Assembly (NCBI GenBank): GCA_033065855.1
Contig: JAVXUO010001608.1
Span: 115,926 to 179,925, forward strand
Source: Escallonia rubra
Taxonomy: Eukaryota > Streptophyta > Magnoliopsida > Escalloniales > Escalloniaceae
Length of the DNA: 64,000 nt
Direction: 5' to 3'
Made by a program: the position numbers and the translations under genes. The notes under the pieces are model-generated. The model did no database searches, was not told where the DNA came from, and was given only the letters and a program-made list of their open reading frames with translations. Shown piece by piece: positions 2,570 to 61,627 of the stretch. Each line of letters opens with the position of its first letter. Positions within the stretch are counted from its first letter, which is position 1.

Positions 2570-2999
2570 TATTCTTAAGGGAAAAGTAGGGAATGACCCC
2601 CTCTACTATAAACGTTGTGCGATTTGCCTCTCTCCACTTCAAACTTAAGCACTAAACCCCCCCACAGTTTAAGAAAATGGGCACTTTAGACGAATCCGTT
2701 ATGAATAGCGTGAAATGACCAAAATATCCTTATTTCTTTATTAGCTAATGACCCCCTGTACTATACACGGTGTGCAATTTTCCCCCCTCAAATTTAAATT
2801 ACAATTTTTGCCCATGACCCTCTTCCTCTTGTCAACCCCGCTACAATTGGTGATTCACTGAGCACGACCACTTTACTGAGCACAACCACTGGTCTTTTTC
2901 TCCGACCACCAGGGAGTTACAAAAAAAAAAAGGAACCGCGATTGCCGTTAGGATTAGCAACTAATTTGCAAATTAAGCTTTTGAAATCCTAAAATTAGA

Positions 3000-3082
3000 G
3001 GATTTGAAACCCTGATTTAAAAATTAGGGTTTTGAAACCTTAAAATTAGGGTTTCAAAACCCTAATTTTCAAATTAGGGTTT
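3000..3082. repeat. Telobox-like AAACCCTAA / TTAGGGTTT cluster
   Basis: Inside the MULE, TTAGGGTTT or AAACCCTAA occurs four times in both orientations within about 80 bases, separated by AAAATT spacers, so the stretch can pair with itself. Teloboxes are common in promoters of plant ribosomal and cell-cycle genes; here they may be part of captured 5' sequence. Confidence 0.7.
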
Positions 3083-3302
3083 CTCTTCTCCTTCTCCAGA
3101 TCTGATCCCGCCGCCGGCAGCCCAAGCGTCCTCTTCACCCCACGCCGCCGGCAGCCTCTCTTGACCCACCATCCGGCAGACTCGCCCCACCCCCACGCAA
3201 GCGCCGCCAGCAAGCCCCTTGGCAAACCCACCTCACCACGCCGGCAAGCCCTTTGGCAAACCCACACCGCCGATTTCAATTCAATTCAAATTTTCATCAA
3301 TG

Positions 3303-3560
3303 CCGTGGAAGGGGAAGGGGAAGGGGAAGGGGGAGGGCGGTCGCGGCGACGGGGAAGGGGAGGGGGGAGGGCGGTCGCGGGGACGGGGCCTTGGGGGGGG
3401 GGAGGGCGGGCGCGGCGACGGGGAAGGGGAAGGGCGGTTGCTGCGACGGGGAAGGGGAAAGGGAAGGACGGTCGCTGCGATGGGGAAGGGGGAGGGTGGT
3501 GCGGCGACAGGGAAGAGGGAGGCAGACGGGGAGACGAAGGGGTGCGGTGGTCGGGGGAGT
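3303..3560 (+). repeat. G-rich (GGGGAA)n / GCGGCGACG tract
   Basis: Low-complexity purine tract with GGGGAAG repeats and recurring GGTCGCGGCGACGG blocks. It is open in several frames on both strands (Gly/Arg or Pro/Arg repeats) because it is simple sequence, not because it codes. Confidence 0.8.
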
Positions 3561-3871
3561 TGACATAATTGGGTTGGGGGATAGGGGGGTTGGGTGGCGG
3601 GGGTGGGGGGGGGGGGTGGGGTGGTTAGAATTAGAGTTTTTTCTGATTTTCTTTTCTAAAAAGAGACAATGGGCAAAAATGTCATTTACAAAAAAAAATC
3701 GTTAGTCAACGCGCGTGTTGACCACGCGCTGTTATATTTAACGGTTTTCGTCTAAGGTGCCCATTTTCTTAAACTGTGGGAGGGTTTAGTGCTTAAGTTT
3801 GAAGTGGAGGGGGGCAAATCGCACAACGTGTATAGTAGATGGGGTCATTCCCTACTTTTCCCTATTCTTAA

Positions 3872-4423
3872 TGCAATTCTCCTATTCCCCACACAAAAAA
3901 ATAAAAATAAAAATAAAAAATCTCGGTGCAACTTCGCTTTCAAGATAAATACAAGAAAACCACGGTAATAGTCTCTGTAATTAATTTGTGGAGTGTTTTA
4001 TCATTTGTTTTTCCATAACGTCCACTTGACAACATTTAACACTTAATTCCTACCTCCGCCATAAAAGATGATCCAAACTTATGTTCGTACATCTAACCTT
4101 CTCTAAGCTGTAATTGCAAAGACATCGATCGTACTTCAAGCGCTCAGCTAGAGTTGCTACCTTGAGTTTTCCTATTGTCTAGGCGCACAAAGTTTGAGGA
4201 AAATAAGTTTATCTTCCCCATAAAACAACCAAATTCATCAACCAATGACTACGGGGCATGATCAGGATCTTGGTATTCGATCACAAGATAAGTTTACAGT
4301 TAATTGAACTCAGATGATTTGATAATGAGTTAGATATTGCTCGACTTTAAGAGGGGAAAAAAATACGTAATACAGCGATGGAAATCAATAGGCAAACCGT
4401 ACCTATTGCATATAGGAGAATAT
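3872..4423. other. Intergenic, no gene seen
   Basis: AT-rich unique-looking sequence between the two Mutator-like elements, with a short (AAAATA)n run near 3896-3918. Nothing else supported. Confidence 0.5.
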
Positions 4424-4432
4424 TACAACCTA

Positions 4433-5756
4433 GGGTAAATTATACAAAACACTCCTGAGGTTTGTCATAATTACACTCCGCCCCCCTAACTATTAAAATT
4501 ACACTCCGTTCAAAATGTAATTTTTTTTCTTACGGTATTAACGGTGCAATGCAAAAAGACATGAATGCCCGTAAGACAAACCTAATCTCATCTCAAAGGC
4601 GACGCACCCACTTCTGGTGTCACTGTGCTGGGGGTGCGACGCCAAGGTTCACTCGGCCAACTTTCTCGTGGCGAGGCATGCGAGGACTCTGCTGTGCCAC
4701 GTGTGCCAGACTCCGAAGGCGTGGAGCACTTCCGGCCAGAAGCTCGGGCGGACGGTCTCTGTTTGCGAGTGTTGCGTCTGTGTTAGAGGTGGAATAAAAA
4801 ATGGCGTAGTGGACGAAGAGAGCCAATGAGGCAACGACGATGGAATTGATAGTGATGGTGACTACGATGAGGAGGAAGACGAAGATGACGATGGCGGTGA
4901 GTTTGATGTAGATGATGGAGAGAATCAGGTGGTGCCGTGGTCATCTACGGCGCCGCCACCGCCTCCACCGGCATAAAGTTCGTCAAGTAGCGAAGAGTCA
5001 TCGAGCAGGCTCTGTAATGCTGGCGATGAAGATGTTTCGTCGAAGGAATGTGTGAAAATATTGCAGATCTTTCCTCCGATGTATGAAATTTCTCTCGCCT
5101 CCTTTATTGTTTCAATTCCTTCGATTTTCTTCTCTCGGATGTTACTAGACCCGATTCTTTCTTCTACTGTTTTTTTTTTGTTTTATTTGATTAGTGTTCG
5201 ATTAGATCGTCCAATTGTTGACATAAATATATAAGAATTTGTATTTGCCTGCTTATGTGGGAAGAAATGACGCATTGTACGATTTCATTTGACGGTGAGG
5301 ACCTATTGTCTATTTTGTAGGATGATCTAAGTTGTTCATCTTCTTTACGGAAAAACCGTACGCTGCCTCAGATCCAACCATTCTTCACTATTTTCTGACC
5401 AAGACATTGTTACCTCCTCAAGTAGTTGGGTTTGATGAAGGCAATGGATAAAAGGGGATGAGCAGAAGGTGGAAGGAAGGGTCTCTGTGGAGTGGCTAAA
5501 ATTTACAAAAACCCAACATTAAAATAAGACCACATAGGTGTATAAAGAACAAACGGGGGGTATTTTGAGTATGAAAATTGCATAAAGTAGTGTGTCAAGG
5601 AATCTTGAAACGGAGTTTGGTATGCCGTTAAAAGTATGTAGTTATGTGTAACGCGGGTACAAACCTTAGGGGAACAGCATGTAATTTTAATAGTTAGCGG
5701 GGGCGGGACGGAGTTTAATTATGACAAATCTCAGGGGAGTTTTGTGTAATTTACCC
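4433..5756 (+). mobile_element. Pack-MULE carrying a captured B-box gene
   Basis: Terminal inverted repeats of about 75 bp start GGGTAAATTATACAAAAC on the left and match the reverse complement of the right end (GGGTAAATTACACAAAAC). Flanks are TACAACCTA (4424-4432) and TACAACTTA (5757-5765), a 9-bp target duplication with one change. There is no transposase. The interior from about 4613 to 5400 is host-gene sequence from a B-box zinc-finger gene, which makes this a Pack-MULE. The cargo keeps an intron, so it was taken from genomic DNA, not from an mRNA. The TIRs differ from those of the element at 2579-3862, so it is another family. Confidence 0.88.
4617..5398 (+). pseudogene. Captured BBX28/29-type B-box zinc-finger gene fragment
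   Basis: One frame from about 4617 reads LCWGCDAKVHSANFLVARHA, then TLLCHVCQTPKAW and SVCECCV, the B-box of BBX28/29-like transcription factors. It continues in the same frame through an acidic Asp/Glu stretch, ENQVVPWSST, a proline run and SSSSEESSS, in the order of the family. Two in-frame stops (4827-4829 and 4974-4976) and a 1-nt shift near 5050-5060 break it; after the shift ENIADLSSD-like coding reaches a donor at 5080/5081 (GTATGA). The intron 5081-5320 ends TTTTGTAG and the next exon gives DDLSCSSSLRKNR. The first zinc-ligand Cys pair is missing, so the start of the gene was not captured or is lost. It cannot make a normal BBX protein but could make antisense or small RNA against the parent gene (inference). 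Confidence 0.85.
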
Positions 5757-5765
5757 TACAACTTA

Positions 5766-7048
5766 AACAATTCGATCTAGTTGAAAATGGTCAACAGGCG
5801 GTCAAATAGGCCCATGTCTTCGGTTAGTGTTTCATTGCACTTTGGAGCACTGGCCTAAGGTCTACCTAAATGGTGATACCTATGCCATTATTTACGAGAG
5901 AGGGCATTCATTCACGCACTCTCCACAATCGAAATAAAAAATATTGAATTACTCTTTCAAATGTAGTCGATGGTGAAAAGAAATATTAACAAAGGTAATT
6001 ACATCATTGGTAAACTTTTGCAGCTTAGCTATACAAATTCTTCTCTAAAGACACCAAGCAACACTCGTGTTAAAATCAATAATTGGTGCCTTAAAGTTCG
6101 AAATTGTTATCATCGGAGAAAAAATGGCCTGCTAAAACAAATGGATGCTGCTTATGCACATACCCCTTTTCCGTAAAAACATTGCAAGAACCAGTTCAAA
6201 TTTTTTTTTTTTAATTGTAAGCACATTGTATTATTATCAAAGAGAAACAAGTGATTATTTTTAATAGGCAGAGTTTAGCCACACTCGTTGCACCCTATAT
6301 GAGTTCAACTCACTTTCCAGCATCCTTGTCGAAAATCACCTAAGCGATTTTGAGCTGTCTTGACTGGTCGATCTAATCAAAGGGGCTGGAGAGTAGCCTG
6401 TTCACTTTTGAACTGAACTTGTGTAGTCTCCAGAGTAGCTATTTTTAGGTGTTATATTGGACTGCAAAAACTAGAAAGACAAAACTATATAATAAAGACA
6501 ACTATATATAATAGCTTCTTACTGCAGTCTTCAATCAAGCATGTCTATTGTACTCCAATACCTTTTATAGAGCCCACACCCTACCAAACTCCTTGTATTA
6601 CCAGAACTTGCACCAAGTTACCAAACGTGGTTCTTTGGTTGCCATTTGATCTGCTCCACCGGTTGCCTCAGAGTTATCCACCCTATGTGCTTGGATCTCC
6701 CACAGTGGTGGATCTGACTTATGCTGATTTCCACTTTAAATATTCATAACTGGGCTCTTGGCTCGGGCTTGAAGACTTAGACCTAAGTGCCAAGACAAGC
6801 AAGAACAGGTAAGCTTGACAAAAGCTGAGCGGTCAGTCAATAGGTCCCCACCAGATACTTTTCCGGTCGAACACTTCTGATGGGTGGGGATTAAGGCATC
6901 TAACTTACTGACTGAAGTTTGGGGAGGGCCTGCCGGGCTTGCTTCTCATGAGCTTGGGTGAGGTACTAATATAGTCAGTCCGACCCTATCGCTGGCCAAT
7001 CCATACCTTGGAAGGTGATGGCTTGGATAAATCGACCTCCACGCAAAC
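5766..7048. other. Intergenic, no gene seen
   Basis: A T-run at about 6200-6212 could be the tail of a minus-strand retroposon, but no target duplication or polymerase III boxes were found. The rest looks like decayed repeat. Confidence 0.45.
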
Positions 7049-7676: not shown

Positions 7677-8673
7677 ACATAGAGTGGGCAAGAAAAAGAA
7701 AAAGAAAGACAAATAGAGAAAAAACCAGGTTTGCGCTTTAGTAATTGAACAAGGAATAACCAAAATACAACAGTTCTAATCAAGAGTCCTGACTTGCAAA
7801 GGAAAAAGATAACACCTCCAAGATTTTTTCACGCCACAATACGAAGTTGCTCGATCAGAGGTTTTTTGATGCCTTTATTTTCTTCACTCAACCTGGGCAG
7901 AATTGGAATCTTTCTTGGCAGGATTATAAATGCTATACTCACCAAAATCTCTTCTACCACTGGCAAAAGAATGTCAACATCATATCCTTTTGCAAAAGGG
8001 AAGGACAATTTAGTTGCAAAACATGAATATCATTCTTCAAAGTTAGAACTGAGTTGAAAGCTAAGCACGAGAAAAAGCAAAGGATTGGGACTTGCAAAAG
8101 TTTCAACTGTATGCTCTTAAATAGAGCCCTTGCACTATAGATTTCAAAAAATACTATTAATTTTCTTCCATTATGCAACACCATTAATTAAGTTTAACAC
8201 CATTTGCATCAAATTTATTTGGTGTCACTTGCAACAGAAAGCTGTTTAGCCGTCACAACTATGCACAAAGCACTCGTTAATTTAGCTATATGTTTCATCT
8301 TCTTGTATTTATCTTTCCATCGTCCTCCATTATCTACTTGAAATCTTGTTATGATAGTGATGCGACACAATCACGGAAGCCATGGTCACTTTGCCAAGTG
8401 ACCATTATGTTGTGGATGGCCGCACCACCCTATAGATTAATGTTTGGTTACTAGATTTGGTTTTACAATAAGGACTGACCAGCAGTAAGAATTTTGGGTC
8501 CCACTTGACAGCACAAATTCATGCCTTCTTTTTTTTTTCCCCTTTTTTTTTGCAATTGCTTCTGAAAGCTATTCAGCCCTGGGGAGAGAATTTGGAAGAC
8601 TTTATTCGTGAACGACAGACAGGAGAGACTGGTGATAGTGTCTAGTGGATGACTTGTTTTGCTATACCCTGGA
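7677..8673. other. Intergenic, no gene seen
   Basis: AT-rich sequence with short T-runs at about 8528-8551. No coding, RNA gene or clear element ends could be supported. Confidence 0.45.
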
Positions 8674-20735: not shown

Positions 20736-22479
20736 ATGGCTTCTGCCAACCTAAAAATGGAAGGGAATGAAATCGACGTGGAAGCGATGGAACCCATTTC
20801 TCTTTCCGACCCGCTAGAAGAATGTGCTGATATTTCCGAGATTGGAGGTGTGGAGAACAAACATGATGAAGGTGAAACCAATGTTGTCAGAAAGTTCAAG
20901 CGATTCTTGGCCAATATGTGGCAAAAGTTGCTTGATAAGACAAGGGTTCTCGAAGATCTGTGGCCACAATACTGTTGTGGTGGTGGCGAAATGGAAAGAA
21001 CTAGAGCTTACCATGTTTGGCCAGGAAATAACGTAATGCACTACCTCAATATCCTTTTTTCATTTCATAAAGTTTTAATTAAGTCTTTCTTATGATTTCA
21101 CTTGATTTACAGGTATTTTTCTTCAGAGGACGACTAATTTGTGGTCCGGATCCAAGAGGGTTACTTCTAACCGCAGTTTCTATTAGTCTCTCAAGTTGGA
21201 TATTTGCTGTTTATGTTGCAGATGAGTTGCCTAATCATTCTGGTCTCGTAATCACCATCGGTGTGATCTTAACCATAATTGTTAGTGCTATCTGCTCATG
21301 TTTCACTACTTTTTTGCCTTATCTTCAACTTACATTAAACAGATTTGATAGATATAAGAAGATGATGCTTCAATCGTCACAGGCTAAATTTAAATATATA
21401 TAGAGCCAGTTTGATACCTTGTCAGAGTTTCAAGAGGACTTATGGAGTCAAAATACAGTTCTATTACTTACTTTGCAGTTGAGTAGCCAACTGCAGTTTC
21501 TTGTTGTAACCAAAAGCACCACAATCACTCCGTGATAAGTAATGTCTAAAGCACCCAATACTGAACTACTTAATTCTCTTACCTATAGAACTGATTTTAC
21601 AGTATATTCCAATGCAGGTTCTTGTGAACTTGATACTGGTTAGTATGATTGATCCAGGAATTGTTCCAAGGAATGATCAACCATTCGTCTTTGACGAAAT
21701 CGGCTCCAGTGATAGAACTAGAAAGAAAAGGGTGATTAATGTCAATGGATTGGAACTAAAATTGAAGTATTGTCGGGTCTGTAAGATCTATCGTCCACCT
21801 AGGAGCTGCCATTGTGCTGTTTGTGACAACTGTGTGGAGAATTTTGATCACCACTGCCCTTGGATTGGTCAATGCATTGGACTGGTACATATTGCCGAGA
21901 ACCCTGCACCTTCTTGCTACATATACTCACTCCCTATAAGTCTAAAACACGATATCTTGATGTGCAGCGAAACTATCGATTTTACCTGACTTTTTTAGTC
22001 ACGGCACTAGTTTTCTTTGCATACATATTTGCCTTTTCTTGCTGGAGAGTCCACCAAAGGATGTCGCAAAGTGGCACTGGGATTTTCTCGATGCTAAGGA
22101 ACCGCCCTGAAATTCTGGCGTTGGCTTCTTTCAGTTCTGCTGCTATTGCATTCCTTGCTGGCCTTACGGGTTACCATGCCTATCTTATTGCTACAAATCA
22201 GGTTTGTCTACAGATTTTTGGTGTTAGTTTCAGTCCGTGACTGCCAATTTTATAGAGACGAGTTTAATCGAACATATTGTGAATGCTGCATTTTGCCTAA
22301 TGCAGACAGCTTATGAGAATTTCCGGCAACGTTATTCTGGCTCTAGAAATCCCTATGACAAAGGAATTTTAAGCAATATCATGGACACTTTGTTCATGCG
22401 ACTTCCACCTTCTAGAGTTGACTTTCGAGCAGAAGTAGCGCCATGGTGGTCTGGCTGTAGTGATGGTGATGGCAAATGA
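20736..22479 (+). CDS. DHHC-type protein S-acyltransferase (PAT)
   Basis: Transfers palmitate from acyl-CoA through a cysteine intermediate to cysteines of target proteins at endomembranes or the plasma membrane. Five exons, all phase 0 with GT..AG: 20736-21032, 21113-21280, 21618-21884, 21968-22201, 22306-22479; 379 aa and TGA stop. The ATG has good context (GAAGATGG). Residues ~90-115 give YHVWPGNN then RGRLICGPD, the plant PAT hallmark. Four membrane segments: two in exons 2-3 and two in exon 4. DPG lies at 167-169. The zinc-binding cysteine-rich domain has [20 protein letters not shown] and DHHC at 232-235, followed by [15 protein letters not shown]. The TTxE motif is TAYE at 323-326. Every key residue is present. 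The substrate is unknown and the exact PAT number cannot be given. Confidence 0.95.
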
Positions 22480-45780: not shown

Positions 45781-47896
45781 TTGTAATTTTGCACATTTCT
45801 CCCTGCAAATTGCACCTTTTTTATTTATTTAAATAGAACTACCTTTTATAAGAAAAATAATACTACAAGATATCAGGTGCCTACAAATAAACCTTGTGTC
45901 GAAAAGGTTAAAAAAAAATATATATTTGTTTTCAACGTATTTAAAGACGGTAGTATGCAATAAAAGGAGAATTCGGAATATGTAGCATCTTTCTTTGAGT
46001 AAAACTTTAGAACTTTATTGAAGTAAAGAGATAGCGGAGCACAATAGTAAAATAGAATATCGCCTAATCTCCTAAGTCTACAGCATACATATGCAGCGCA
46101 TAGCCTCACAAACTTTGTAAATAACCTCAAGTTTCCGCTCAAGTTGCTTTGCTTGCCAAGAAAAAGAATATGTATTGTTACCTAATATTGTGCTTAGTAA
46201 TACGTATCGTTCTCTCCATCTCCTTCCCGGAGCTGGCAACTTATGAAAAAAAATCTCCGCTTGTACAAAGCACTAGAGATTTGTCGCTAGTACCAGACTT
46301 ACATGTTTGCGTCATTTCTAGCGACAACTTCAAAAGTACGTGGTTACAAGCACTAGGGAAAGATACATTCTCTATCAACATTTACAAATTGGAAAAGGGA
46401 GAGAATTGTACCTTTCCTAATCTTCAAACAGGAAGAAGCTACAAGGGCTAGGAGCAGTGGCACGCGATATTGGCACGGCTCAATAAAAAAAAAGATCACT
46501 ACCATTTTCAGCACTAACTTTCGCATTGAACCGGACCAATATCTCGTTTAACTGTTCCATATGCAACATCTTTCATTTTATAGGCGAAAGATGTTTTGCT
46601 GAAACAAATACTGTAAACCACAATGATGAACGAGGAAGCGATGCATGAGAAAGGAGCAAGGTTTTCATTTTTAGATTTTGTTGCAAAGCTAATGAGGTTC
46701 TCTATGGTGAAGAAGGAGAAAGAGAGGAAGAGGTGGGGTGGCATTGAAGAAGTGGCATTTAGTTGCCAGCTACCGCTCACAAAGGACGTTGGAATATTAA
46801 TTTAAGAAGGTAAAGGAATCGTGAAAAAGCTCACGGGAACAAATCTAGAGTTTCTAATTTCTGCATGTATTGGACATGGAGAGTGAGGAGTGACAGAGGA
46901 TGTATGGTTTTGTTCAATTGGAATTGGCGCTTCATTCGAAATTTCTGTTGAATGCTCATTGATCAAGTCAACTCAAAATATCGTAAGCAACCGAAACAAA
47001 AAAAAGATCAAAGTAACTTATCGTCTTTGGGTTGTACATTATGGTTTTCGATTTTGAATTGGACATTATGGTTTCCGATTTTGAAATTGTTCATTATGGT
47101 TTTTTGGATTGGTTTTTTGGCCTGAGATTTCTCCAATTGGGGTCAACCTAAAAAAACAAAATATTATATTCTGAATATTAGTACTTCGTTACTTAAACAA
47201 AATGATATCAATTTGTGTTGTGTATATATATAAAAAGTTGATCCCTTAATAGTGCTGACATATAACTAATAGTTGCTAGTGTTAATTATAGAGCCATCAA
47301 CTTTAGCATTATGGACGATCTTGATCATTTTTTATAGTCATTTTATCTACATCTGCATGTGGGGGACGAGACATATGTCATTTTTGCCCGTCTTATCCTC
47401 GTTCGTTCTATGTTTCATATTTGAATCACTATCTTTCCTATCTTCTGTTCAGGAGTTTTTACGCCAAAGCAACCGTCCATCGCCACGACACCAGCACCAT
47501 TCAGCATATTACTACCACCAATTAGCCCACCACCACCACCGTTGCCCAACACTGTTGCCACCATCGCCTCCAAGGGCCCACGCTCTAAAAAAGTCGAACC
47601 CATAAAAAGGTGTCTCTATCTTCATAGATAAAATTACAACGATCCACCATCCCTTGATATTAAACTCTAACGATCCCCCACCAGCAAGAGAGCAAACTTT
47701 CAAGACCTTGCGGACCTCAAAATTATGTGTGAAATATCCAAGTGTAAAAAAAAGGCAACGGCGAGGCCTTATAAAGAGTAAATGGTCCAATATATCACAT
47801 TCAAAGCTATATCAGCCCATTTTTTGAGGCCCCAAGTTGGCTTTCTTTAAGGATGGCCTTGAATGTTGAAAGTACGGAAACTGGTACATCACCATG
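45781..47896. other. Intergenic, no gene seen
   Basis: Short frames at 46149-46451 and 46623-46805 lack recognisable motifs. Near 47500-47560 there is a CCACCA-rich stretch. 47640-47745 is related to two separate pieces at 49394-49460 and 49843-49870. Confidence 0.45.
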
Positions 47897-56695: not shown

Positions 56696-56739
56696 TCGGC
56701 TCTTGTTATATTGGGTAACGCCAAGAGAGTTAATCGATC

Positions 56740-58476
56740 ATGGCTTACGTTGGGGGTATGGAGGGTAGTTCTACCACTAGGCCTCCATTGTTTAATGGGA
56801 CCAATTATAGTGTGTGGAAAGTTAAGATGAAAATCTACTTAGAATCTCAAGACTATGAGATGTGGGATATTGTTGAGAATGGCCCATTCGTTCCGATAAA
56901 GGTGGTTGACAAGGTTGAAGAGCCTAAATCAAAATCGGAGTATAGTGATCATGACAAGAAGATGATTTGTATGAATGCTAGAGTAAAAAATTGTCTTGTA
57001 TGTGCTTTAGACACTAATGAACTCAATGAAGTCATTATGTGTAATTCCGCTAATGAAGGGACTTCTCTTCTTAGAGATTCCAAGATGAACTTATTGTTTA
57101 AAGATTATGAGTTATTCCATATGCTTTCAAATGAATCTATTACGGATATGAATACTCGTTTTACTAACATTGTGAACCCTTTGAAGCAATTGGGTAAGGA
57201 ATTCACTAATGGTGATCTAGTAAGAAAAGTGATTAGGTCCTTACCAAGAGCTTGGGATGCAAAGATCACCGCCATCCAAGAATCAAAGAATCTCAACATC
57301 TTTCCTCTTGATGAATTGATGTGCTCACTCATGACGTACGAAATGCAACTCAAGACCTTTGATCAAGAGGACGTCAAGAAGAAGCCTACATCAATTGCTC
57401 TTAAAGCTTCATCTTCAAACCTTGAGTCAAGTGATGATGATGAAGAATTTGATGAAGAGGATATTGCATTGGTTGCAAAGAACTTCAAGAAGTTCTTAAG
57501 ATTTAGAAGAAATGATGGGAGAAGACAACAAAATGCTAGCAACGAAGAGAAGCTTTGCTACAAATGCCACAAGCCGGGACACATGAAGATGGATTGTCCT
57601 ATCTACAAAAGGGAGAAGAAGGAAAGAAAAGATGTATGGGAAAGAGCTAAAAGAAGACAATTCTCTAAGAAAGAGAACAAGGAGAAGGAAAGAGCAATGA
57701 ATGCCGAACATACTTCAACATGGAGTGATTTTGATTCAAGTGATGAAGAGAATGATCAAGCAAATGTATGCTTCATGGCAAATGATGAGGTAAGCTCTTC
57801 TTCCGGTAGTGATAGTGATAATGAAAGCTTTGAAGATGCTTATGATAGCTTATATGAGGAATCCAAGAAAATTTTCAAGAAAAATATTATTTTGTCTAAG
57901 AAATTCCTTGAAGCTAATAAGCAAATTGAGAAGTTGTTAATGGAAAATGATAAGTTGCATGCCAAGAATGAATGCATGTCTAGCCATTTATATGTAGAGC
58001 ATGTGAATAACGATTTGGTTGAATTACTTGTTAACACTCCTAGCTCAAAACAAATCTCTTCCAAAACTTTGGCTTTAGAAAAACAAAATGAAGATTTAAA
58101 AGTTGAGATTTGTGATTTGAAAAAATGTCTTGAAAAATTTGTTGATGGTCAAAACAATTTGGATGTCATGCTTGGACGCCAAAGAATTGGCCTAAACAAA
58201 GGTGGTCTTGGATTAGATCCCATGGCCATGCCTCCTAAAGTTTTGCAACAACAAGCTAGGTTGAATATTCATACAAAACGACCAAAGAACTATTGCACAC
58301 CTTTTACACATTGCGGTTGGTGCAACAAGAAAGGGCATACGACTAATCATTGTCCTTGTAGAATTGTTTTTGTTAGAGGTAGAAAGAAAATGTGGATTGT
58401 GAAAGGTCAAGAATACAAATGCAAGACTAACACCCAAGGACCCAAGAAAATTTGGGTACCAAAAGTCATTACTTGA
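56740..58476 (+). CDS. gag: Copia gag polyprotein
   Basis: One open frame of 578 codons that looks whole. The N-terminal ~210 residues (PPLFNGTNYSVWKVKMKIYL) form the UBN2/DUF4219-type capsid region. A CCHC zinc knuckle follows near 57556-57600 (CYKCHKPGHMKMDCP), then a basic and acidic middle, a coiled-coil-like stretch, and a second Cys/His motif near 58316-58355 (CGWCNKKGHTTNHCP). It ends GPKKIWVPK, typical of SIRE-like gag. It would assemble the cytoplasmic particle and bind the element RNA. Confidence 0.93.
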   Translation: MAYVGGMEGSSTTRPPLFNGTNYSVWKVKMKIYLESQDYEMWDIVENGPFVPIKVVDKVEEPKSKSEYSDHDKKMICMNARVKNCLVCALDTNELNEVIMCNSANEGTSLLRDSKMNLLFKDYELFHMLSNESITDMNTRFTNIVNPLKQLGKEFTNGDLVRKVIRSLPRAWDAKITAIQESKNLNIFPLDELMCSLMTYEMQLKTFDQEDVKKKPTSIALKASSSNLESSDDDEEFDEEDIALVAKNFKKFLRFRRNDGRRQQNASNEEKLCYKCHKPGHMKMDCPIYKREKKERKDVWERAKRRQFSKKENKEKERAMNAEHTSTWSDFDSSDEENDQANVCFMANDEVSSSSGSDSDNESFEDAYDSLYEESKKIFKKNIILSKKFLEANKQIEKLLMENDKLHAKNECMSSHLYVEHVNNDLVELLVNTPSSKQISSKTLALEKQNEDLKVEICDLKKCLEKFVDGQNNLDVMLGRQRIGLNKGGLGLDPMAMPPKVLQQQARLNIHTKRPKNYCTPFTHCGWCNKKGHTTNHCPCRIVFVRGRKKMWIVKGQEYKCKTNTQGPKKIWVPKVIT

Positions 58477-58499
58477 TTTGTGTTTATAGGTATGTCTCA

Positions 58500-61400
58500 A
58501 AGCAAAATCTAGTAGCAAGAAGTGGATTCTTGATAGTGGATGCTCAAGACATATGACCGGCAACATATCTCTTTTCACATCGATTGATCTTAAGGAAGGA
58601 GGAAATGTGACCTTTGGTGACAATTCTCAAGGAAAAATCAAAGGTAAAGGAACTATTGGTAAGGAACCACATTCAATTGAGAATGTGTTATATGTTGAAG
58701 GATTGAAGCATAACTTGCTAAGTATTACTAAGTATTGGTCAATTTAGTGATAAATGTTTTAAAGTTATCTTTGAGGCTTCTCATTGCACTATACAATCCT
58801 TGAAGAACAATGAAACTATTTTGGTTGGTAGTAGAGATAACAATGTTTACTCCATTCAATTAAATGATTTAGCTAACCAAGATGTCAAGTGTCTTAGTGC
58901 TATTAGTGAAACATCTTGGCTTTGGCATCGAAGACTTGGTCACATGCACATGGAGCACTTGAAGGATATTTCAAGCAAAGAACTTGTGAGGGGTCTCCCG
59001 AAGATCAAGTTTGAGAAAGATAAAGTATGTGATGCTTGTCAAATGGGTAAGCAAAAGAAGGTCTCTCACAAACTGAAGAAAATGGTATCTACTTCTAGAC
59101 CCTTGCAATTACTTCACATGGATTTGTTTGGACCAATCCCTACTACTAGTCTTGGTGGTAAATCATATTGTTTTGTTATTGTTGATGACTATTCTCGCTA
59201 TACTTGGACTTTCTTTTTGGCTACCAAAGATGAATCTCTAAATGTGTTCACTTCATTTGCAAAACGTGTTCAAAATCAAAAAGGTTATTTGATTACCAAC
59301 ATTCGAAGTGATCATGGTAAAGAATTTGAAAATTCAAAAATAGGAGCCTTGTGTGATGACTTTGGGATATCACATAATTTTTCGGCTCCTAGAACTCCTC
59401 AACAAAATGGTGTTGCCGAAAGAAAGAATAGGTCTTTGCAAGAAGCGGCAAGAACAATGCTTAACGAATATGGTTTACCTAAATACTTTTGGGCGGAGGC
59501 GGTCAATTGTGCTTGTTTTGTTCTTAATAGAGTTATCTTGCGAAATTTTTTGTTAAAAACCCCTTATGAGCTTTTTAATGATAAGAAACCTAAGGTGAGC
59601 TTTTTTAGAGTCTTTGGTTGCAAATGTTTTGTTTTAAATACCAAGGATCACCTTAGCAAATTTGATTCCAAAACCTTTGAGGGTATTTTTCTTGGTTACT
59701 CTAATAATAGTATGGCATATAGAGTTTATAATAAAAGTACTTTGGTTGTTGAAGAATCCATTAATGTTACTTTTGATGAGACTAATCCTTTTCTTCGGAG
59801 GACTAACATTGTTAATGTAGATGACATGGACAATGACTTGAGAACTTTGGACATAAGTGAAACACTACAAGACAACCCCAAAGAAATTGATCTAGGGGAG
59901 CAACAATCAAGTTCTCAAGGGGAAAATGAGGAAGCAATCAATGATGCTTCAAACTTGGACAACTCTCAAGAATTACCAAAAGATTGGACTTACAAAAAGG
60001 ATCATCCAAGCGATCAAATCTTAGGTAATCCTTCGAGTGGGGTAAGAACTCGACGCTCTCTTCAACAACATGTTAATATAGCGTTTCTTTCCCAAATTGA
60101 ACCGAAGAAATTCTCCGAAGCTCTACATCATGAATCTTGGATGCTTGCTATGCAAGAAGAGCTAGTTCAATTTGAAAGAAATCAAGTTTGGACCATTGTG
60201 CCTAAACCTCAAAACTTTAGGATTATAGGCACAAAATGGAATTTTAGAAACAAACTTGATGAATCCGGAGTCGTGGTTAGAAACAAGGCTAGATTAGTGG
60301 CCCAAGGTTATAACCAAGAGGAAGGAATTGATTTTGATGAAACTTATGCACCGGTAGCTAGACTTGAATCTATTAGAATGCTATTAGCTTTTGCTTGCTA
60401 TAGAGATTTTAAACTCTTTCAAATGGATGTCAAGAGTGCCTTTCTAAATGGTTTTATTTCGGAGGAGGTCTATGTGGCTCAACCTCCCGGCTTTGAACAT
60501 GAAAAATTTCCAAACCATGTTTTCTGTCTTAGCAAAGCTCTTTATGGTTTAAAACAAGCTCCTAGAGCTTGGTATGAAAGGCTAAGTAATTTTCTTTTAG
60601 AAAATGGTTTTTCAAGAGGAAAACTTGACACCACTCTTTTTATAAAATCTAAGGGCAATGACTTATTGTTGGTGCAAATTTATGTTGATGATATTATATT
60701 TGGTGCTACTAATGGATCCTTGTGCGAAGAGTTTGCTTCTTGTATGAGTAAGGAGTTTGAAATGAGCATGATGGGAGAACTCACCTTCTTCCTTGGATTG
60801 CAAATCAAACAAAGCAAGGATGTAATCTTTATCAACCAAGCCAAATACACCAAAGAGCTACTCAAGAGATTTGACATGGAAGCATCAAATGCTTTTGACA
60901 CTCCAATGAGCTCTTCATTAAAGCTTGATAAAGATGAAAAGGGTAAGGATGTTGATATTAAGCGCTATCGAGGTATGATCGGATCACTCATTTACCTTAC
61001 CGCAAGTAGACCCGATATAATGTTTAGTGTTTGTTTATGTGCTAGATTTCAAGCTTGTCCTAAGGAATCTCATTTGATTGCCGTCAAGAGAATCCTTAGA
61101 TATCTTAAAGGCACTCACGATTTAGGGTTATGGTTTCCTAGAAACACTTCATTTTTGACCTAATTGGTTACTCCGACGCCGACTATGCCGGTTGTAAAAC
61201 CGAGCGGAAAAGTACTAGTGGAGGTTGCCAATTCCTAGGTCACTCTCTTGTTTCTTGGAGTTCCAAAAAGCAAAACTCGGTTGCACTCTCTACCACCGAA
61301 GCCGAATATATGGCGGTTGGTGCTTGTTGTGCACAAATTCTTTGGATGAAACAAACCCTTTTGGATTTTGGACTCAAGTATGATCACATACCTATCTTAT

Positions 61401-61627
61401 GTGATAACACTAGTTCCATTGACTTGACCAAAAATCACATCCAACATTCTCGCACTAAGCCCATAGAAATCAAACACCATTTTATCCGTGATCATGTGCA
61501 AAAAGGTGATATTGTTCTAGATTTCGTGGACACAAATCACCAATTAGCGGATATCTTCACTAAACCTTTAGATTCGAAGAGGTTTACCGCTCTTAGAAGA
61601 GAACTTGGCATGTCTTCACCTATGTGA
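58500..61627 (+). pseudogene. pol: Copia pol region (PR, INT, RT, RNase H), broken
   Basis: Domains in order: aspartic protease with LDSGCSRHMTG (~58530); GAG-pre-integrase with WHRRLGHMH and CDACQMGK (~58920-59050); integrase core with [16 protein letters not shown] and [12 protein letters not shown] (~59110-59450); reverse transcriptase with [26 protein letters not shown] and IYVDDIIFG (~60280-60700); RNase H with STTEAEYMAVGACC (~61290) and IKHHFIRDHVQKG. gag and pol are in different frames. The region has about two or three breaks and is otherwise well preserved, in keeping with a young copy. Confidence 0.92.

Follow-up and report, generated by a model that had tools for sequence, protein, structure and literature searches.

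The window analysed in the present work, a stretch of 64,000 nucleotides of the Escallonia rubra genome, carries at positions 4433–5756 a Mutator-like element (MULE) in which part of a B-box (BBX) transcription-factor gene is enclosed between the two arms. The left terminal inverted repeat (TIR) of this element (4433..4511, plus strand), which is also present in three other loci described below (viz. L009, L011, and L032), pairs with the right TIR (5672..5756, minus strand) with 82% identity over 85 columns (E about 2e-20), and the outermost 54 nucleotides (4431–4484 against 5705–5758) are 89% complementary. The TIR arms have no other match inside the window at E 0.01 or better. Direct reading of the flanks identified an unstranded target-site duplication (TSD) on either side, TACAACCTA at 4424..4432 and TACAACTTA at 5757..5765, identical at eight of nine positions with one mismatch. 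An earlier reading made from the letters of the window alone (hereafter the sequence-only reading) had described long TIRs and a 9-bp duplication with eight matching positions, and both descriptions are borne out. The occurrence of TIRs, TSD and cargo at 4433–5756 is confirmed as real, and chance is excluded.

The two ends of L032, a transposase-bearing relative, match window positions 4433–4622 and 5367–5756, and the window element therefore consists of 190 bases of MULE 5' arm (4433..4622, plus strand), 744 bases of BBX sequence, and 390 bases of MULE 3' arm (5367..5756, plus strand), the last being common to family members without BBX. Comparison with the parent gene (see below) divides the cargo, on the plus strand, into an exon 1 piece beginning at about parent codon 22 (4623..5080), a GT..AG intron of 240 bp (5081..5320; 248 bp in the parent), and the start of exon 2 (5321..5366); our sequence-difference tables set the boundary of exon 1 and intron one base early (5079/5080, which should be 5080/5081). 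The cargo had previously been placed at 4617–5398, where a BBX piece does lie, but its extent is 4623–5366 and the bases from 5367 onward belong to the 3' arm. Likewise, the exon, intron and exon follow each other in the normal order as had been proposed, but the B-box is incomplete.

Translation of the window shows a BBX-like reading frame between the arms, and a tblastn search with the BBX protein P0001 of Escallonia herrerae matches 4617–5045 (83%, E 2.6e-43) with two in-frame stops. With the read-through as a protein query, 692 proteins among 867 candidates were matched with E <=0.001, and the 120 of these 692 that were listed are headed by three E. herrerae proteins (66–70% identity). The matches listed include BBX28 (Fragaria), B-box protein 31 and B-box protein 32; some of those listed are named BBX28 to BBX32 and many CONSTANS-LIKE. 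Seven of the 120 listed proteins were searched back against the window by tblastn, and all seven match within 4617–5045. The two stops and single frameshift noted from the letters are present, the latter as a 1-nt deletion near 5046, but the cargo also carries a 15-nt deletion that keeps the frame and an insertion of 3 nt, both common to the four copies. It lacks the first ~21 codons of the parent, hence the first half of the zinc-binding domain (B-box), and it ends ~15 codons into parent exon 2, the remainder of which is absent. A Pfam scan of 4611–4826 returned no family at E 1 or better.

Elsewhere in the window, we observed a MIR171_1 precursor at 46454–46553 (Rfam matches of 76 and 55.5 bits, one per strand; gathering threshold 48), a Copia-type retrotransposon at 56734–61624 with gag, integrase and reverse transcriptase matches, and a DHHC palmitoyltransferase match at 21543–21986 that is probably a gene exon.

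The parent gene, the dispersed copies and the MULE family

A search of the E. rubra genome (566,129,122 bases in 3222 contigs) with the cargo DNA gave 25 matches, six of which represent BBX sequence at five loci, viz. the window itself (contig C1397, 115926–179925), L009 (C925), the parent gene L010 (C1395), L011 (C1698; two matches divided by an insert), and L012 (C1904). The parent matches only 4623–5367 of the tested interval 4001–6200, at 91% identity, and no MULE arms were found around it in the 6 kb fetched. Its exon 1 is open from the start codon and its second exon is also open. Thus, the BBX homologue that the sequence-only reading expected to align across the cargo exists in the host genome, and the similarity stops at the arms and does not run past the TIRs into the flanks, an outcome on which that reading had also staked its case. 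The parent is the only near-identical BBX gene found in the genome; a second parent gene was considered and rejected, the next best BBX genes being 64% and 57% identical to P0001. Late in exon 2, at about residue 243, the C-terminal frame of the parent and the E. herrerae proteins diverge, which is either a real difference or an assembly error.

The domain scan was carried out on the E. herrerae relative P0001, to which the E. rubra parent aligns from M1; it identified one zf-B_box match (E 1.1e-6) and no CCT domain at E 0.05 or better. Arabidopsis BBX28 and BBX29 are group V single-B-box proteins according to the excerpted text of PMC10442040, and the E. herrerae relative resembles them in having one B-box and no CCT match. 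The proposed BBX28/29-type identity is thus upheld, on the E. herrerae relative, as regards the single B-box without CCT, and the subgroup itself is plausible. In contrast to these proteins, the captured piece is without the first half of the B-box and contains stops, so it cannot make a BBX28/BBX29-like protein. The role in light and flowering control that had been ascribed to BBX28/29 agrees with the same excerpt (PMC10442040).

Three further copies of the chimera were found in the genome, a search for other copies with the same TIRs having been proposed in the sequence-only reading. L009 is a complete copy of 1337 bp (90% identity), with a TSD TAAGAAAAA matching at 9/9 positions; L011 has the TSD TAGGAAATA (9/9), which differs in sequence from that of L009; and L012 comprises the right half only, being cut by the contig start, and its TSD is unreadable (an apparent 365-column deletion in L012 was dismissed as the contig edge only). 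A nested insert of about 940 bp (about 2841–3791 of the locus) interrupts L011; inspection by eye shows inverted ends (TAGACCTGGCAA) together with an 8-bp duplication, and we take the insert from its features to be hAT-like; a 1-nt deletion in L011 near column 265 may stem from the joining of its two parts.

Within the BBX piece, the window differs from L009 at 42 of 735 positions, from L011 at 56 of 727, from L012 at 34 of 393, and from the parent at 47 of 741. The four copies depart from the parent in an identical way at 12 sites, and five amino-acid differences from the parent are common to every copy for which there are data (three or four of them). When these five are polarized against three E. 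herrerae proteins, over parent codons 22 to 193 (the remainder being arm sequence), three are derived in the copies, the parent agreeing with the E. herrerae proteins, and two are derived in the parent, the copies agreeing with E. herrerae. The polarity of these five differences identifies the gene, therefore, as the source and the element as the recipient. The changes common to the copies point to what would be a single capture and later amplification. In a 3'-arm tree with four BBX-less members as root, the BBX copies fall together, though with a support of 48/100 only, and the window joins with L009 (81/100) and then with L011 (75/100); this tree is compatible with a single origin of the BBX copies. 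The tree of the BBX piece is weakly supported (30/100 and 51/100) and branches in a different order.

The other 19 of the 25 matches are confined to the final ~35 bp of the query, where the MULE 3' arm begins, and five of them were examined as longer stretches (L030–L034). The window 3' arm is 77–81% identical to L013/L030, L015/L031, L016/L032, and L017/L033; no left TIR was found in the stretches fetched for L031, L033, and L034. L032 is a 5502-bp element with the TSD TTTATATTA (9/9) that shares both arms with the window element; its 5' arm matches window 4433–4579 at 83% and 4586–4622 at 97%, and its 5' end carries about 168 extra bases within the part matching 4433–4622. Three of the four reading frames scanned in L032 match Mutator-type domains (viz. 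DBD_Tnp_Mut, E 6.9e-12, above the Pfam curated cut-off; Transposase_mut, E 4.8e-4, and SWIM, E 7e-4, both just below the cut-off), and one matches nothing. L030, whose outermost 36 left bases are missing, carries between its arms, at 8095–8520 and antisense to the element in the orientation used here, a piece of a plasma-membrane H+-ATPase (PDB 5ksd, E 9.5e-56), in which a Pfam scan found no match. With a BBX piece in the window element and an H+-ATPase piece in L030, the same MULE family thus seems to have taken up genes at least twice. An origin of the 3' arm from L014, suggested by a TIR-free match to 5366–5481, was considered and dropped, since the longer DNA of this locus, L034, resembles a family member in which some 3.3 kb interrupts the 3' arm.

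Capture junctions and origin of the chimera

The left junction of the BBX piece can be read in the MULE (GTCACTGTGCTGCGGG), the parent (GAGCCTGTGCTGGGGG) and the element (GTCACTGTGCTGGGGG). Eight bases, CTGTGCTG at 4623–4630, are present in both MULE and parent, and the capture breakpoint falls within them. Among 200,000 draws of random junctions, 8 shared nucleotides were reached with P 0.00012 and 2 or more with P 0.16, values that apply to one junction, chosen post hoc and read against one relative with a readable 5' arm. The right junction shares 1–2 nucleotides only, which limits the support for microhomology to the left side. The microhomology of the left junction would fit capture by template switching.

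These observations are almost certainly accounted for, as a whole, by a Pack-MULE history of BBX capture, amplification and decay, the mismatch in the window TSD being counted against it. As the sequence shows, a MuDR-type element holds, where its transposase interior would lie, a 744-bp genomic stretch copied from a BBX gene on another contig, with a portion of exon 1, the intron in full and the first part of exon 2. The copying probably involved a template switch in the course of gap repair or replication, with use of the 8 shared bases. The chimera then moved to at least four sites, with a 9-bp TSD at the three readable ones and transposase presumably supplied by relatives, and the copies, which are probably methylated, have subsequently decayed without clear coding constraint. 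The Pack-MULE reading first put forward from the letters alone gains support from the parent gene, from the sister copies with TSDs of their own, and from the transposase-bearing relative with the same arms.

The high exon identity between cargo and parent could also be expected if the window held a processed or segmental BBX duplicate that happens to sit between inverted repeats. However, the intron is kept (240 against 248 bp), and therefore the capture was from DNA and the piece is not retroposed; moreover, the similarity ends at both arms, these arms belong to a transposase-bearing family, and the same chimera occurs at other sites with new 9-bp duplications. We rejected segmental duplication and a retroposed copy on the basis of the arms, the kept intron and the sister copies with new TSDs, and the probability left to such a duplicate is negligible. 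Helitron capture was also rejected, as TIRs and a 9-bp TSD are present instead.

Decay of the copies and possible effects on the parent gene

All four copies contain stop codons. The earlier statement that no normal protein could be made from the window copy holds, in view of its stops and the missing half of the B-box. Ka/Ks of cargo against parent, a measurement the sequence-only reading had called for, is 0.25, a value which taken alone resembles constraint; it is 0.27 for window and L009, and ten pairs span 0.25 to 1.24. Transitions in CpG/CHG context make up 46–64% of the exon changes over eight sets (half or more in six of the eight), a share that is as expected for methylated transposon DNA, and we infer that the copies are methylated. 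We then compared the changes with a context-matched neutral expectation, obtained by random reassignment of changes to sites that share their context; as the parent served as the ancestor, a few of the changes counted are in fact those of the parent. Of all window changes, 14 were synonymous against 9.8 expected, which is borderline (P 0.074); the seven other sets, among them the private changes of the window (P 0.26), gave P 0.26 to 0.93. A clear excess of synonymous changes is hence absent in all eight context-matched sets (P 0.074 to 0.93), and clear coding-frame constraint was rejected on these tests. Fewer amino-acid changes than under neutrality, the mark of a coding Pack-MULE under selection, were not found in them. 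We read the copies as probably decaying freely, and most likely the captured piece has no present function.

Two ways in which the copies might nevertheless act have been weighed against this reading. Dispersed copies could regulate the parent BBX gene in trans through 21–24-nt small RNAs and so tune light and flowering responses. The window cargo retains 128 exact 21-mers and 103 exact 24-mers in common with the parent (of 914 and 911 in all, in a comparison covering parent exon 1 and the first 400 nt of exon 2), so small-RNA action is possible; four copies exist; and, according to the excerpted text of a 2026 review, captured sequences in maize form siRNA reservoirs that can silence their donor genes (PMC13317346). 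Sequence identity is, however, a precondition only, and any recent Pack-MULE shares such words with its donor; the copies also lack clear constraint, though small-RNA action needs no coding constraint. We consider such regulation very improbable. The other proposal concerns L009 and not the window copy: the predicted E. rubra protein P0005 (RJ640_004749) would be the product of a chimeric gene in which a flanking exon outside L009 (2242–2282) is spliced into the BBX cargo (2782 onward). Four placements of a single 499-nt intron, of which one is GT..AG, regenerate the model from L009; the intron starts in the flank, some 200 bp beyond the left TIR, and its other end lies in the cargo, immediately after the stop of L009. 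However, P0005 is a gene prediction whose protein evidence could be the parent BBX itself, and the predicted protein has no B-box. We consider a chimeric gene highly unlikely. Taken together, feedback of the BBX Pack-MULE copies on their parent, whether by small RNAs or by the predicted L009 chimeric transcript, appears highly unlikely; if it were true, the Escallonia gene for a light/flowering repressor would have come under the control of a transposon family.

Relation to known Pack-MULEs and significance

The first Pack-MULE paper is reportedly that of Jiang et al. in 2004. The E. rubra element resembles the Pack-MULEs of rice and other plants in being a MULE with long TIRs and a 9-bp TSD that holds an intron-bearing fragment from an unlinked host gene, and in its several copies produced by later transposition; one third of Pack-MULEs are multicopy according to the excerpted text of PMC8277862. 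It differs from them in host lineage (Escalloniales) and cargo only, and not in kind. The defining features of Pack-MULEs that were tested are all found here, viz. long TIRs, a 9-bp TSD (9/9 in L009, L011, and L032), MULE-family arms, a TIR-free parent, a kept intron, and transposition with the cargo (two copies with full TSDs).

A B-box gene has also been described in an Oryza Pack-MULE: the available part of PMC3503983 reports A-U6, homologous to LOC_Os02g07930 and moved by MERMITEA/MuDR. The two cases are alike in that a B-box-containing gene lies within a Pack-MULE, and, as far as that part of the source goes, they differ in plant, MULE family and gene. Both terms, Pack-MULE and B-box, also occur in a paper on a rice TE database (PMC4508813). 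Our search of the literature for Pack-MULE paired with B-box found no report of a BBX Pack-MULE in Escallonia. The present element is a clear and well-preserved but ordinary case of a known type of event.

Outside the grasses it is an unusually complete case, for which the parent gene, four copies, a transposase-bearing relative, a second gene piece and an 8-base junction are all at hand. The excerpted text of PMC8277862 calls the choice between the gap-filling and template-switch models in plant Pack-MULEs worth exploring. The uptake of genes by Pack-MULEs is still debated, and the junctions of this MULE family allow tests of it.
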